The translations under genes were made by a program, and so were the position numbers. A stretch of 41,025 bases of DNA, taken from a virus. Positions within the stretch are counted from its first letter, which is position 1. Each line of letters starts with the position of its first letter. Below the pieces are notes generated by a model, which was not told the origin of the DNA, did not search any database, and saw nothing but the letters and a program-made list of their open reading frames with translations. The stretch is from positions 1 through 41,025 of IMG/VR virus record IMGVR_UViG_3300009085_000048, one strand, 5' to 3'. Of the stretch, positions 11,722-41,025 are shown in pieces.

Positions 11722-13109
11722 TGGCAACAGCGCGGACACGATATGCAAATACTGATGTCTCAGGCGGCGCGGCGGATGGTACGAGTCTCGCGAATGCTTA
11801 CTCCTCTTTGTCCGCGCTCGAAGCTGCCGAGGATGATCTGGGGAATCTCGTGTCACGCGATGAGTGGCTCGATGTTCGCGCATATGCGAGCGCGGGAACA
11901 GCTGATACAACAAAATGCACGATCGCCGGGTGGACGTTAGATGGTACACGATACATACAGATCGATAGTCCTGACGGATCGTACAAGCTCGAAGTGAGCA
12001 ATGATGACGCGCTTGTCATTCAGTGCACGAACATCAAGTTTAAACGAATTCGCGGAACCATCACAAGCGGCGACAGCACGAACGATATTTTCTTTGATGG
12101 TTCGTATGTAGCGGCAGCCGCAACGTGTGAAATTGATCGGTGTTATGTGTACGCATCTGGTTCGACAGTGTTCACCGTATTCTCATTCACCGATTCGGAT
12201 TTTACTTTTTACATACGCTCGTCAATTTCGGAATCTGTTTCGACTGGACGCGGGCATTATCACGTCGCGAACACCGGGTATATTTATCAGTGTACCCACA
12301 AGGGAGGCGCGAGCGGTTTCCGATCAGGTACAAGTGGCACATACACGCTTACGAACGATATCTTTTTCTCTACGGCTGATGATATTATTGTCGGAGCAGG
12401 ATCAACAGTCAACACTCTTAATTGTGGTACGGACGATGGTGATGGAACAAATCCGATCGATGCGGTTGACGATGACTGGTCGAACGAATTCACAGACTAC
12501 GCGAACGGCGATTACACGCCTCTGAACTCAGGCAACATCTATCAGGCCGGAGCTGACCTCGATATTGCCGCGGACTACGCCGGTAATGCGTTTGATTCAT
12601 CAACTCCGACAATCGGAGCGTATGAATATGTATCAGCGTCATCCGACACCGAATTGACGGTTGCGGATATTGATATTGGCCTTGATGTCGCGTTGGATGC
12701 GAATCCGTTGACCGCCGCCGCGCAATTATCAATCGATGATATTGATATCGGCCTTGATGTTGCGATGGACTCAAACGCGCTCACGACAGCCGCTCTGTTG
12801 AGTGTAGCGGATATTGATATCGGCCTTGATGTTGCGATGGATGCGCCGGACATTATTTATTATACACTTGGCGATACTGTGCTTGTCGTCGATGATGTGA
12901 GTATCGGCCTTGATGTCGCGATGGATGCGCTTGTGCTTACATCCGCGTCGACACTATCGGTCAATAATATTGATATCGGTTTAGAGATAATTTTTGATGA
13001 AGTACCGGACGCTGATAAACCGGTAAGCGTAAGTTTGACGGCGACCGTTAAATCAATTACGGTGTCGGCGTCCGTCGAACAGATAACAATTGAAGCGGTG
13101 GAGGTATAA
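11721..13109 (+). CDS. Beta-rich virion protein with repeated DIDIGLDVAMD units
   Basis: A 462-residue acidic protein. Residues 1-300 resemble a right-handed beta-helix: short strands with many Ser/Thr/Gly/Asp, for example TRYIQIDSPDGSYKLEVSN and CTNIKFKRIRGTIT. Residues 313-430 hold repeats around DIDIGLDVAMD; three are regular 24-residue units, two further are diverged. No catalytic motif is seen. Position behind the capsid genes suggests a head fibre or decoration protein, possibly extending outward through the repeats. The low-complexity repeat DNA could change copy number between isolates. Start is by TAATG coupling to the previous gene. Confidence 0.75.
   Translation: MATARTRYANTDVSGGAADGTSLANAYSSLSALEAAEDDLGNLVSRDEWLDVRAYASAGTADTTKCTIAGWTLDGTRYIQIDSPDGSYKLEVSNDDALVIQCTNIKFKRIRGTITSGDSTNDIFFDGSYVAAAATCEIDRCYVYASGSTVFTVFSFTDSDFTFYIRSSISESVSTGRGHYHVANTGYIYQCTHKGGASGFRSGTSGTYTLTNDIFFSTADDIIVGAGSTVNTLNCGTDDGDGTNPIDAVDDDWSNEFTDYANGDYTPLNSGNIYQAGADLDIAADYAGNAFDSSTPTIGAYEYVSASSDTELTVADIDIGLDVALDANPLTAAAQLSIDDIDIGLDVAMDSNALTTAALLSVADIDIGLDVAMDAPDIIYYTLGDTVLVVDDVSIGLDVAMDALVLTSASTLSVNNIDIGLEIIFDEVPDADKPVSVSLTATVKSITVSASVEQITIEAVEV
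12666..12960 (+). repeat. 72-bp coding repeats
   Basis: The element GATATTGATAT(T/C)GGCCTTGATG recurs at 12666, 12738 and 12810, exactly 72 bp apart, and in weaker form near 12895 and 12967. It encodes the DIDIGLD motif of the surrounding gene. Nucleotide identity between units is high, which suggests recent duplication or gene conversion. Confidence 0.85.
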
Positions 13110-22001: not shown

Positions 22002-22478
22002 ATGGAAGATGACAGATTTACATCGGAACAAATCAACGTACTCGCCGGACTTTTTAAACCGATGCATGACCGGCTCGACTCCTCACTTGAAAAGCAAACG
22101 GTATTTAATGAGTCAATCTTGCATGCGTTAGACGAACTCCGCGCATTATCGGCAACGAACATGAACAACAATACACGACTTGAAAAAATAATGATCCATC
22201 ATCAAGAGGAATGTGTAGCGCGTACACGTATCGAGGGGCACATAACAGATCACAAAGATACAATCAAGGCGACCGTGACGGAGGTGCTTGCGAGCATCCC
22301 GAAGAAAAAAAGAGCGCAGGAAGTATTACAAATAATCGCGGTATGTGTATCCATCATCATCGGTGCATCGACGATCGGCACGATGGTATCGGGGTCAATC
22401 GCGAATAATAATATCAAGATCGCGCAACTGCAAACGGAAATTGAAACTATCAAGAGGGGGTTGAAAGATGCTCAGTGA
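22002..22478 (+). CDS. Membrane-anchored coiled-coil protein (hemolysin XhlA/holin-accessory-like)
   Basis: A 158-residue protein with a charged helical N-terminal 105 residues, one hydrophobic span at about 107-131 (EVLQIIAVCVSIIIGASTIG) and a short C-terminal helix. Its place just before the endolysin suggests a lysis accessory or holin-like function, but one span and a long soluble domain also fit a membrane-tethered structural protein. It overlaps the next gene by 11 nt. Confidence 0.55.
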   Translation: MEDDRFTSEQINVLAGLFKPMHDRLDSSLEKQTVFNESILHALDELRALSATNMNNNTRLEKIMIHHQEECVARTRIEGHITDHKDTIKATVTEVLASIPKKKRAQEVLQIIAVCVSIIIGASTIGTMVSGSIANNNIKIAQLQTEIETIKRGLKDAQ

Positions 22479-23079
22479 AAAAGGAATCGAACTTCAAAAG
22501 ATTCTTGACTATGTTGTTCGGCTACCGCAATATAAGAAAGACTATCAAAAAGGCGGTCCGCAGGAGACATACTGCAATTTACTCGCGAGAGGTGTACTCG
22601 ATCATGAGGCCGCCCGCGTGTGGGTGAAAGATTACCTTCCGCACGAATATAATTACGACATCTCGTTCATGAATCCTGGAAAATCGATATCGTACATCAT
22701 GACAATGACGATGATAAAGGTCGCGTATGATAATGTGTTGCGAATGTCTAAATCTGGAATCGCGACCGCGAAAACGCACGATGCAATATTGCCGCCGCAA
22801 GCCGGAAAATATCCGATTGAAGTCGATCCCGCGAGCGCGCAAGAGTACGCGAATGAGGGCGTCCCGATATGGGTTACGTCGGTCGGCGTCGGGCGGAACG
22901 GACATGAGGCGATTGTATATCCGACCGGGAACGCGGTCGATGAATACAGAGGTCCGATGATCGCGCAGGCCGGAGGGTATAACGGGATATTCTGGATTTC
23001 AGAATGGCGAGCGTTCGGCGAATATTATTTTGATAAAAACTCTGACATAAAGTTTTTTAGGTTCCCGTTGAAAGGATAA
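22468..23079 (+). CDS. Putative endolysin, cysteine peptidase/amidase fold
   Basis: A 203-residue soluble protein in the lysis region. Cys36 in ETYCNLLARG at a predicted helix start and His146 in GRNGHEAIVYP on a predicted strand have the spacing and order of CHAP/NlpC-like papain-fold enzymes that cut peptidoglycan peptides. A following aromatic stretch (GGYNGIFWISEWRAFGEYYF) is similar to the end of such domains. No signal peptide is present, so release would need a holin. The catalytic assignment is by pattern only. Confidence 0.6.
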   Translation: MLSEKGIELQKILDYVVRLPQYKKDYQKGGPQETYCNLLARGVLDHEAARVWVKDYLPHEYNYDISFMNPGKSISYIMTMTMIKVAYDNVLRMSKSGIATAKTHDAILPPQAGKYPIEVDPASAQEYANEGVPIWVTSVGVGRNGHEAIVYPTGNAVDEYRGPMIAQAGGYNGIFWISEWRAFGEYYFDKNSDIKFFRFPLKG

Positions 23080-35026: not shown

Positions 35027-35204
35027 GATTCGCCCCTGTTCTGTCTGACGCCGTCCACGCTTCCCATCGGCCATTTCTTTTTACAACTATTTTCGGCATT
35101 CCATTGTATTCAACCTCTTTTGCGTGGTATCCGCCCTGAAATCCGAGATTGTCCAATACTTTACACTCGCATTCTTTTCCGTCCATCATGCATTTTATTT
35201 TCAT
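35019..35204 (-). CDS. Small hypothetical protein
   Basis: 61 residues beginning MKIKCMMDGKECECKVLDNL, beta-rich with clustered cysteines at the N-terminus and a conserved-looking GMPKIVVKRNGRWEAW. GGCGGAAATAT precedes ATG 35204. No family recognised. Confidence 0.6.
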   Translation of the reverse strand: MKIKCMMDGKECECKVLDNLGFQGGYHAKEVEYNGMPKIVVKRNGRWEAWTASDRTGANHV

Positions 35205-35782
35205 ATATTTCCGCCTTTCTTCTCAATCACCATTCCGCCATACGCCCCCACGGTCCCGCCCTGTTGGCCCGACGAGGTCACACGCGATGAGTCATGCGCC
35301 CCCACGTACCCGCCCTGTTGGCCCGACGAGGTCACACGCGATGAGTCATACGCCTGCACGGTCCCGCCCTGTTGGCCCGACGAGGTCACACGCGATGAGC
35401 CATACGCCCCCACGTCACCGCCCTGTTGGCCCTTGACAATTAGATGCCCGCCGAACACGATAGCCGAGTAATCCCCGTCAGGCCTATCAAGCGTCATCTT
35501 GCCGTTCCATAGGATGTGCGTTTCGCACCACGCCGGAAGTTCTTTCCTAACCGCCGCCTCAACCTCTCGCGCATCGTACCAGTCGGGGAGGATGTCTTGA
35601 TCGACTTTGTATATCCAGTGACGGATAGGAGTCGTGTACAGATTGTCTGGAGGAGTTATTTCAACCCGCACCCCGTCCTCATCCTTCAACCCGTAGTGCT
35701 TGATAATCTTCCCGTGGCTATCACACCACGGGAGATGCAAGATTTTTGTCCGCGTTACGAACATAGACGCCGCTCTACACAT
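35201..35782 (-). CDS. Protein with 18-residue SSRVTSSGQQGG repeats
   Basis: 193 residues starting MCRAASMFVTRTKILHLPWC at ATG 35782 (GAGGAGAATAAAA upstream). Residues 1-115 are a globular region with DNLYTTPIRHWIYKVDQDIL; residues 120-190 are almost four copies of an 18-residue unit, GQQGGxVxAYxSSRVTSS. Similar short polar repeats in other phages (AYDSSSV type) are predicted to form left- or right-handed solenoids. It is unusual for such a protein to be encoded among early small genes. Copy number may vary between isolates. Confidence 0.7.
   Translation of the reverse strand: MCRAASMFVTRTKILHLPWCDSHGKIIKHYGLKDEDGVRVEITPPDNLYTTPIRHWIYKVDQDILPDWYDAREVEAAVRKELPAWCETHILWNGKMTLDRPDGDYSAIVFGGHLIVKGQQGGDVGAYGSSRVTSSGQQGGTVQAYDSSRVTSSGQQGGYVGAHDSSRVTSSGQQGGTVGAYGGMVIEKKGGNI
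35228..35432. repeat. 54-bp tandem coding repeat
   Basis: The 15-mer CCGCCCTGTTGGCCC occurs at 35256, 35310, 35364 and 35418, exactly 54 bp apart, inside nearly identical units. The unit encodes 18 residues of the gene at 35201-35782. The high nucleotide identity implies recent expansion. Confidence 0.95.
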
Positions 35783-36089: not shown

Positions 36090-36125
36090 GAGGATTCCAC
36101 GTTAACCGTCATCCACAACCGTAAT

Positions 36126-36270
36126 GGAGCGGGCAGGATTCGAACCTGCACAGATGGTCTTGCATATCATCACTGACGGGAGGTGTCGAACCTTCCAAAT
36201 CCCATCGCCTTAGCCAGTTAGTTGATGTCTCCGATATGCTCGATGCGTCTACCATTCCGCCACCGCTCCG
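36126..36270 (-). ncRNA. tRNA-like RNA with a large insertion and two T-arms
   Basis: 145 nt on the minus strand. The outer parts make a tRNA: acceptor GGAGCGG/CCGCTCC, a Leu-type D-arm (GCGGAATGGTAGACGC), and a perfect T-arm GCAGG-TTCGAAT-CCTGC. Between D-arm and T-arm lie about 93 nt instead of 20-35. Within it GCATATC pairs with GATATGC (7 bp), and between these is a second canonical T-arm (loop TTCGACA, stem GG-AGG/CCTCC with one bulged A) plus a D-loop-like AACTGGCTAAGG. A Cys-type anticodon arm (loop ATGCAAG, GCA) can form near the 3' end but competes with the 7-bp helix. Either a nested tRNA-like RNA, an intron-bearing tRNA or a decayed pair. Confidence 0.5.
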
Positions 36271-36272
36271 TA

Positions 36273-36316
36273 TACGCCGCGCAGGACTCGAACCCGCGCT
36301 GAGTACCTACCGGCGT
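36273..36316 (-). ncRNA. Minimal tRNA-like minihelix
   Basis: 44 nt that start 1 nt after the stop codon of the gene at 36318. ACGCC pairs with GGCGT and GCGCGGG with CCTGCGC (one G-U), together 12 bp, the length of a stacked acceptor plus T-stem. The loop TTCGAGT is a canonical T-loop, and an unpaired A follows as discriminator. D and anticodon arms are replaced by a 12-nt linker (GGTAGGTACTCA). It abuts the larger tRNA-like element by 2 nt. It looks like an RNase P/RNase Z or synthetase mimic; no CCA is encoded. Confidence 0.55.
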
Positions 36317-36317
36317 G

Positions 36318-36563
36318 TTAACCGTACACATATTCGCTGCCTAAAAGATCATTCCATATTAGATCGTTAAGAATAGGGAAATCTGCTTTTTTAGCAGCGT
36401 ACTCAGCGTGCTCAATCGCGTCCGTTTTGCTATCCGTGTACAGTAACAGCGTTCCTGATGTACGATCCCCGATATTTTTGACGTCAACAACATAAACATA
36501 ATAATATTCCCAAACATCTTTACCCGATCTGTATTGTTTAATGACTGTCTGAATTCCCGTCAT
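36318..36563 (-). CDS. Small hypothetical protein
   Basis: 81 residues (TGIQTVIKQYRSGKDVWEYY) with beta-strands followed by helices (DSKTDAIEHAEYAAKKADFP). AAAAAGGAGAGAGAAG precedes ATG 36563. No domain recognised. Its stop is followed after one nucleotide by the tRNA-like minihelix. Confidence 0.65.
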   Translation of the reverse strand: MTGIQTVIKQYRSGKDVWEYYYVYVVDVKNIGDRTSGTLLLYTDSKTDAIEHAEYAAKKADFPILNDLIWNDLLGSEYVYG

Positions 36564-36579: not shown

Positions 36580-36629
36580 GCGCCGTCGTTCGGATATCGG
36601 CGCTCGTGGTTTACACCCCTTGCGGGGTG
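36580..36629 (-). other. Two hairpins in the intercistronic leader
   Basis: In the 73-nt gap 36564-36636 the minus strand has CACCCC-GCAA-GGGGTG (36614-36629, a GNRA tetraloop) and GCGCCG...CGGCGC with a 12-nt loop (36580-36603), followed by the ribosome binding site. The GNRA loop suggests a defined RNA fold. Function unknown; could be a processing or translation-control element. Confidence 0.6.
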
Positions 36630-36636
36630 CCGTCAC

Positions 36637-36879
36637 CTATATAGACATGATTGCCTTAGCAAACTTTTCGATTATAAACATCGTTCCATTTTCACGAGTC
36701 GCCGAATCAGCATCGGCGATTATTTTCGCATCGATTGCGTTTATGTCGATTGCTTCAATTTTTGCGTTGATAGCAACAAGGATAGCTTCTGGATTTTTCT
36801 GCGGATTTTGTCCGATTGCTTTTTCCATCGACCAGTCAAAGTAATTTCTAATAATTTCTTTCGCCCTATCTCTTGTCAT
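36637..36879 (-). CDS. Small helical hypothetical protein
   Basis: 80 residues from ATG 36879 (MTRDRAKEIIRNYFDWSMEK), preceded by AAAAGGAGAGAG. The longer open frame to 37008 would translate the hammerhead ribozyme and is rejected. Repeated Ala/Ile/Asp residues (AINAKIEAIDINAIDAKIIA) form amphipathic helix. No family recognised. Confidence 0.65.
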   Translation of the reverse strand: MTRDRAKEIIRNYFDWSMEKAIGQNPQKNPEAILVAINAKIEAIDINAIDAKIIADADSATRENGTMFIIEKFAKAIMSI

Positions 36880-36918
36880 CTCACTCTCTCCTTTTCCCCG
36901 CTCTAAGTCGGGGGCCGT

Positions 36919-36970
36919 GGTCTCATCAGTACCGGCAACACCGGCAGACGGCCCAGAGGCCGTTTCGACC
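36919..36970 (-). ncRNA. Hammerhead ribozyme, type II
   Basis: All core elements are present in order on the minus strand: open stem II strand GGTC, then GAAA, then stem III CGGCC-TCTG-GGCCG closed by the A-U pair, the cleavage triplet GTC, stem I TGCCGG-TGTTG-CCGGTA, the core CTGATGA, and the second stem II strand GACC (G10.1-C11.1 pair kept). Predicted cleavage is after C at 36947. It begins 3 nt behind the stop codon of the gene at 36974 and lies 39 nt before the start of the gene at 36879, so it would separate these two cistrons of the early transcript. Stem II is short (4 bp). Confidence 0.93.
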
Positions 36971-36973
36971 TTA

Positions 36974-37225
36974 TTAATTAATTCTAAATCCCGTTGATCT
37001 TTTAACAATCGATTCTATGTGGACTTTGTTTTTCCATATAATTAAGCAGTTCCCCTCCATCAGATTATCGCCGCATATTTCAAGTTCTTCATATTCTCCG
37101 TAACCATAATTCTTTTGTTTTGGGCTATCTATAAATGCGGAATAGATCGGTTTGCCTAAAGCCATCTCGTTTGTGATTGCGGGCGGCAATTCGGTGCAAT
37201 ACCCAGTAAATTTTAATGATATCAT
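36974..37225 (-). CDS. Small hypothetical protein
   Basis: 83 residues beginning MISLKFTGYCTELPPAITNE at ATG 37225, the first gene behind the promoter at 37280-37308. AAGGAGAGAGAAAA is a strong ribosome binding site; an in-frame ATG at 37267 lies too close to the transcription start. No domain recognised. Tandem stops (TAATAA) separate it from the ribozyme. Confidence 0.65.
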   Translation of the reverse strand: MISLKFTGYCTELPPAITNEMALGKPIYSAFIDSPKQKNYGYGEYEELEICGDNLMEGNCLIIWKNKVHIESIVKRSTGFRIN

Positions 37226-40431: not shown

Positions 40432-41025
40432 TTAAAAAAGATCGGGTTGTTTTGGTGATGATTCTTCTATTATATTCAGCTTTGGTTGCGCCCGGAAAAT
40501 CTCAATCCGTTCGCACGCCATCTTGTAATAATCTTTATCCAGCTCGCACCCGACGTAATCGAATCCCATATCTTCACACGCTATCAGACTTGACGCGCTC
40601 CCGACGTGTGTATCAAGGATCAACCATCCCGGTTTTGCGAATCTTTGCAAACACCATCTATATAATGCAATCGGTTTACCGGTGGGATGAAAGTTTTTTT
40701 CACCTCGTTCCGAATCTTTGAAAGCTCCGCACCATTGATGCCGAAATATTCTCAGCGTTCCCTTAAACGATGTCCACGCAAATTCACCATCGGAAAAAAA
40801 ATTAGTTCCGTTTTCCTTATCCCATATTATAGGAGCCGAGCAGTCCCCTAAAAATCTTAAAAAATAATTTCCACCCCATATTATTTGATTAACTGATACG
40901 CGAAACAATTCATCGAAAAAAACTTTATTTGGAGGAACATCCCATTTTACAGTATTGGCCCCTTTACGCTCTTTCATAAATCCTGAAACATTTTTATTAT
41001 ATATACCATAGGGAGGATCAATTAA
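40432..41025 (-). CDS. DNA methyltransferase, main part
   Basis: Codes for the C-terminal three quarters of the methyltransferase that begins at 192; within this window the frame is open to the right edge. After DPPYGIYNK come the target-recognition region and then motif X/I: ALYRWCLQRFAKPGWLILDT with HVGSASSLIACEDMGF, the SAM-binding FxGxG-like loop (here HVGSAS), and YVGCELDKDYYKMACERI. Catalytic motif before SAM motif identifies the beta class. Total joined length is about 220 residues, compact but complete. The first Phe of the SAM motif is replaced by His, worth noting but seen in active relatives of this class only by inference. Confidence 0.9.
   Translation of the reverse strand, partial: LIDPPYGIYNKNVSGFMKERKGANTVKWDVPPNKVFFDELFRVSVNQIIWGGNYFLRFLGDCSAPIIWDKENGTNFFSDGEFAWTSFKGTLRIFRHQWCGAFKDSERGEKNFHPTGKPIALYRWCLQRFAKPGWLILDTHVGSASSLIACEDMGFDYVGCELDKDYYKMACERIEIFRAQPKLNIIEESSPKQPDLF
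40903..41025. repeat. Terminal direct repeat (assembly overlap), right copy
   Basis: Identical to bases 1-123. Collapsing the two copies gives a 40,902-bp circle and restores the methyltransferase gene. Confidence 0.95.

Follow-up and report, generated by a model that had tools for sequence, protein, structure and literature searches.

A compact type II hammerhead ribozyme at the stop codon of a small phage gene belongs to a sub-class missed by default annotation

The window analyzed here, a stretch of 41,025 nucleotides of viral DNA (IMG/VR record IMGVR_UViG_3300009085_000048), carries on its minus strand, at positions 36919-36970, an element that is probably a genuine type II hammerhead ribozyme cutting a polycistronic mRNA once, between genes for proteins of 83 and 80 amino acids (aa). 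The ribozyme is of a kind already known in phages, but its compact sub-class escapes default annotation. Two leads are more surprising: viral type II hammerheads as a class are anchored at stop codons, and the window carries a second intercistronic RNA, here called E2.

An earlier note on this DNA had placed a complete type II hammerhead, with all core bases and three stems, at these coordinates on the minus strand, and our reading of the sequence, the minimum free energy (MFE) structure, and the held-out covariance model described below all agree with it. Read from 36970 down to 36919, the minus strand is GGTC GAAA CGGCC TCTG GGCCG T C ^ TGCCGGT GTT GCCGGTA CTGATGA GACC, with the caret at the predicted cut. 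Stems I and III are closed and stem II is open, which is the type II order, and stems I, II, and III contain seven (a G-U pair included), four, and six pairs, respectively. The 5' strand of stem II, GGUC (36967-36970), pairs with GACC (36919-36922), and pairs 1 and 3 of this stem covary in relatives; the adjoining core segment GAAA (36963-36966; G12, A13, A14, and A15.1) and the second core segment, CUGAUGA (36923-36929), are both invariant in the alignment of relatives. Stem III, ACGGCC-UCUG-GGCCGU (36948-36963), is closed by the A15.1-U16.1 pair and covaries at four of its six pairs, while stem I, UGCCGGU-GUU-GCCGGUA (36930-36946), holds the compact loop motif GU-NNN-GC and covaries at five of seven. 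In addition to the two core segments, the element has U16.1 and a nucleotide 17 other than G at the cut site, as a hammerhead core demands, and both the A15.1-U16.1 and G10.1-C11.1 pairs with three stems around the core. From this core we infer an active ribozyme, with cleavage between C17 (36947) and U1.1 (36946); the earlier note had likewise put the cut after 36947, with a 5'-OH product from 36946. The hammerhead fold is the MFE structure both of the element alone and of its 131-nucleotide (nt) context. A pseudoknot of at least four pairs between loop I and the 3' tail is absent from the window ribozyme.

The ribozyme sits between co-directional minus-strand genes of one putative transcription unit. 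The upstream gene (36974-37225; 83 aa), an open reading frame (ORF) with AAGGAG before its ATG, ends in TAA (36976-36974) followed by a second in-frame TAA, whose bases separate the stop codon from the ribozyme; the start of the element 3 nt after a stop codon, also claimed before, is exact. Downstream, a hairpin, CCCCG-ACUUAGAG-CGGGG (36896-36913), lies between the ribozyme and the ribosome binding site, the Shine-Dalgarno (SD) sequence GGAGAG (36886-36891) of the 80-aa gene (36637-36879), which starts with ATG at 36879. Both genes are of no known family: neither matched PHROG or Pfam, no close protein relatives of either gene or of the helicase were found in viral contigs, and GenBank phages gave no match to the 6.4-kb region or to the upstream protein. 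Upstream of the gene that precedes the ribozyme, a consensus scan found a sigma-70-type promoter-like site, TTGACA-17-TATATT (37308-37280; 11/12), whose architecture is seen again at 40422-40394, and an intrinsic-terminator-like hairpin with a T tract (34669-34651) is the likely end of the unit. These two sites, which are consensus matches only, place the gene pair probably in one unit of ~2.6 kb. The leader GGAGAGAG is common to four successive minus-strand genes (at 37225, 36879, 36563, and 36050), and a hairpin ends a few nt upstream of each copy. Before the helicase gene, at 34747-34651 on the minus strand, a strong promoter-like TTGACA-17-TATTAT is closely followed by a terminator-like hairpin, an attenuator-like arrangement.

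Scanned with Rfam at default settings, the window gave no match. At a relaxed threshold, however, RF02276 (Hammerhead_II) matched the element from end to end at 31.7 bits, with an E value of 1.8e-4 when 701 bases were compared with the whole of Rfam and of 2.5e-6 for the ribozyme when RF02276 alone was run against the record. The default scan was empty because this score is below the curated gathering score of 37 bits, which is an annotation threshold and not a chemical definition; the Rfam hammerhead II match that the earlier note had suggested looking for thus exists, but beneath the family's cut-off. We then scored the window with a covariance model trained on 28 other compact viral hammerheads, from which the window sequence was excluded. 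This model gave the ribozyme 67.1 bits (E = 6.5e-21), and the next best position in the window reached 10.7 bits. Among the 28 relatives, 99.6% of the cells are paired, and 11 of the 17 pairs change on both sides; as a control, sliding the pairing partner by one to three columns reduced pairing to 31-47%.

Two readings would deny that the element is a hammerhead at all. Chance resemblance, to which the sub-threshold Rfam score could be taken to point, is extremely improbable, as a permissive hammerhead-II finder run over the whole window on both strands returned a single match in 300 dinucleotide shuffles compared to one real match, and the E value of the held-out model in practice already refutes it. 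It is also very improbable that the stretch is coding, with the downstream gene beginning at an in-frame TTG at 37008 (123 aa) and running through the ribozyme. The frame from 36637 to 37008 is indeed open, but a strong, well-spaced SD sequence precedes the ATG at 36879, the held-out RNA model recognizes the 52 bases at E = 6.5e-21, and the relatives occupy the same kind of gap.

Type II hammerheads are plentiful in viral contigs of IMG/VR, where a strict core pattern found at least 120 stretches and a structure check yielded 169 matches, two of them the window's own copy. They split into two groups by loop I. In the majority, loop I is larger and able to base-pair with the 3' tail, mostly through at least 4 complementary nt, consistent with the loop I-tail pseudoknot of type II hammerheads described by Perreault et al. 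2011 (PMC3088659). The compact group, 33 of the 160 distinct others, has a stem I of five bases, GU-NNN-GC, and five bases, in which GU-NAN-GC is typical; stem II nearly always has four pairs, usually GGUC/GACC, and loop-tail complementarity is limited to 0-3 nt. The window ribozyme is a member of this compact group. RF02276 exceeded 37 bits in none of the 24 records with compact members (0/24), and at 14 compact-member loci no hammerhead family of any kind reached its Rfam cut-off, while pseudoknot-group loci pass it. The low score therefore reflects the sub-class, which is without the loop I-tail pseudoknot, and is not the mark of a bad copy; routine annotation undercounts phage ribozymes accordingly. 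Some viral type II hammerheads form arrays of seven or more between genes; four single viral contigs (L031, L084, L077, and L117) were each seen to carry four to eight in array.

The position of the window ribozyme beside a stop codon is typical of viral type II hammerheads. In a survey of 153 distinct hammerheads, the window copy included, with stop codons taken from mechanically called same-strand ORFs of at least 40 aa, 121 (79%) start in the interval from -3 to +10 nt, counted from where an upstream stop codon ends. The most frequent distance is -1, at which a TAG stop codon overlaps stem II. As controls, the same spacing was found for 4.7% of random positions, 9.3% of other GTCGA words, and 5.2% of positions on the antisense strand. 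An SD-preceded start lies no more than 60 nt downstream of 81% of the hammerheads, compared to 20% of random positions. The intercistronic location proposed for the window element was thus both right and usual for its class. The stop-codon anchoring of viral type II hammerheads is new here; the term "stop codon" is absent from the main text of Perreault et al. (PMC3088659). The role of hammerheads in phage genomes has been open since their report there (PMC3088659), and the anchoring turns it into a test: does the terminating ribosome gate cleavage?

If the ribozyme acts as its core predicts, a single cut between 36947 and 36946 would divide the polycistronic mRNA. The upstream RNA would then extend only a short way past its stop codon, with stem III and a 2',3'-cyclic phosphate as its 3' end; the downstream RNA would carry a 5'-OH on stem I, ahead of the second hairpin and the SD sequence. 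Since the cut would leave two RNAs, decay and translation of the two genes would be separated, and the likely effect would be to uncouple their stability and translation. Judged by the general size of ribosome footprints, a ribosome that terminates translation of the upstream gene should cover the first half of the ribozyme. Because the ribozyme starts inside the footprint of such a ribosome, it may cut mainly when the upstream stop codon is free of ribosomes.

The last point could be taken further, to a ribozyme whose main role is that of a ribosome-gated switch, cutting only after upstream translation ceases and mainly controlling translation or decay of the downstream gene. This would refine cleavage and not replace it, and we regard it as a tentative and rather doubtful extension: the sharp anchoring of the class at -1 to +9 nt from stop codons favors it, as does Pseudomonas phage YMC12/01/R960, in which the pseudoknot tail of the hammerhead directly adjoins the start codon, but the filling of short gaps alone would also place ribozymes at stop codons. 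A true alternative to cleavage is that the element descends from hammerheads but cuts slowly or not at all in the cell, its hairpins only stabilizing the mRNA. Loop I of the window ribozyme is GU-GUU-GC, and its middle base is U, where 31 of the 32 listed compact members have A; with U in place of the near-invariant A, a tertiary contact may be weak and cleavage slow. The lack of a pseudoknot points the same way, as do the hammerhead-like phage RNAs reported to be inactive (PMC3088659, Figure S7) and the terminase relatives, in which a hammerhead was not found: none was detected in 35 terminase-related records, most of which are fragments and in which sub-threshold members could be missed. Against this, no catalytic base is altered and none of the 17 pairs is broken, an integrity that drift would have eroded, and the compact hammerhead L114 shares the U in the middle of loop I and is otherwise intact. 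Altogether, we consider slow or lost activity in the cell quite unlikely, and a hammerhead that cuts between the two genes is the reading we retain.

The gap that follows the 80-aa gene holds the other lead, E2, an unclassified structured RNA (36580-36637, minus strand; z = -4.5) of the form GGUGACG[P2]AAACCACGA[P3]. In the window, the 80-aa gene's UAG stop codon holds the first base of E2, and the next SD sequence follows directly after its end. A homologue lies between unrelated genes of a distant phage (locus L122, 1681-1738). Both copies start on the G of UAG and keep GGUGACG, AAACCACGA, and an A-rich run before the SD sequence; between the two, three pairs of the hairpins are changed on both sides, with the single-stranded core unchanged. 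E2 matched no Rfam family, and three relaxed collection scans of viral contigs and genomes gave no third copy. Other relaxed matches in these collections were rejected because they were without the hairpins or lay inside coding sequence, and model matches of 10-13 bits were rejected as weak. Stop-codon readthrough at E2 was also considered and dropped, as the open frame joins the next gene in L122 but not in the window. E2 starts on a stop codon, like the viral hammerheads, and recurs with compensatory changes between unrelated phage genes; earlier ribozyme classes were discovered in settings of this sort. E2 may be a processing element or a new ribozyme. A broader proposal, that the unit is punctuated by different cuttable RNAs, namely the hammerhead in gap 1, E2 as a new self-cleaving or processing class in gap 2, and tRNA-like minihelices cuttable by RNase P or RNase Z in gap 3, appears unlikely at present.

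The window probably represents a complete phage genome, either circular or circularly permuted, as a contig (G003, locus L181) joins position 41025 to position 1 at 100% identity. The plus strand carries the portal, terminase, major head, and tail genes, and the minus strand carries the replication genes. Phage G001, in which the L122 copy of E2 lies, has a terminase 61% identical to that of the window and another protein 43% identical to the product of 22468-23079; RF02276 had no match in it. Neither of two contigs that are almost identical to the window extends over the 36.9-kb locus. Several further features were noted. The third gap of the unit (36110-36320, minus strand) contains tRNA-like pieces missed by a default ARAGORN run: an acceptor/T-arm minihelix at about 36273-36317 (minus strand) and a tRNA-Ile(GAU)-like gene with a 61-nt anticodon-loop insert that itself holds a T-arm-like piece. 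Within one gene of the structural region (12650-12980, plus strand), offset self-similar blastn matches reveal internal repeats with a register of ~72 bp, and tandem copies of ~60 nt (around GTGACCTCGTCGGGCCAACAGGGCGGG) occur at 35240-35450 on the minus strand, inside the gene at 35201-35782.

Compared to its closest kin, the compact-loop hammerheads of IMG/VR (e.g., L059, L079, and L114), the window ribozyme has the same 7-bp stem I with GU-NNN-GC, the same 4-bp stem II (GGUC/GACC in most), and the same stop-codon-anchored gap, and it has almost all of stem I in common with L059. Unlike nearly all of the compact members listed, it has a U in the middle of its loop, and it also differs in the hairpin between ribozyme and SD sequence. 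With the type II hammerheads of RF02276 and Perreault et al. 2011 (PMC3088659) it shares the core bases, the circular order with stem II open, and a short stem II, as well as an intergenic position in a phage; unlike the majority of these, it has no pseudoknot of at least four pairs between loop I and the 3' tail, and it has a three-nt loop I (GU-NNN-GC), a four-bp stem II, and a score of 31.7 bits, below 37. Activity has been shown in vitro for hammerheads from phages and in vivo for a prophage array (PMC3088659). The same work already proposed that ribozymes of this kind cleave long transcripts of phages (PMC3088659), so the remark in the earlier note that intercistronic processing is not well described does not hold. 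The clustered prophage hammerheads (the Agrobacterium ardA array, Azorhizobium, and Clostridium scindens; PMC3088659) also lie between phage genes, but as arrays of several, whereas a single one was found in the window record.

The best parallel in a cultured phage is that of R960, an Rfam-grade type II hammerhead that matches RF02276 at 69.9 bits. It begins within the stop codon of an annotated gene and runs up to the last base ahead of the next start codon, filling the gap exactly; this example rests on annotated genes and is independent of mechanical ORF calls. The R960 stretch is carried by 124 phage records, of which 119 are Pseudomonas phages, DMS3 among them, although the deposited DMS3 annotation puts the next gene further downstream. 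Like the window element, the R960 hammerhead and its relatives are type II and fill an intercistronic gap between small genes; unlike it, R960 is of the pseudoknot class, with a shorter stem II and without a separate SD spacer. The copy in DMS3 and its relatives provides a laboratory system in cultured Pseudomonas phages.
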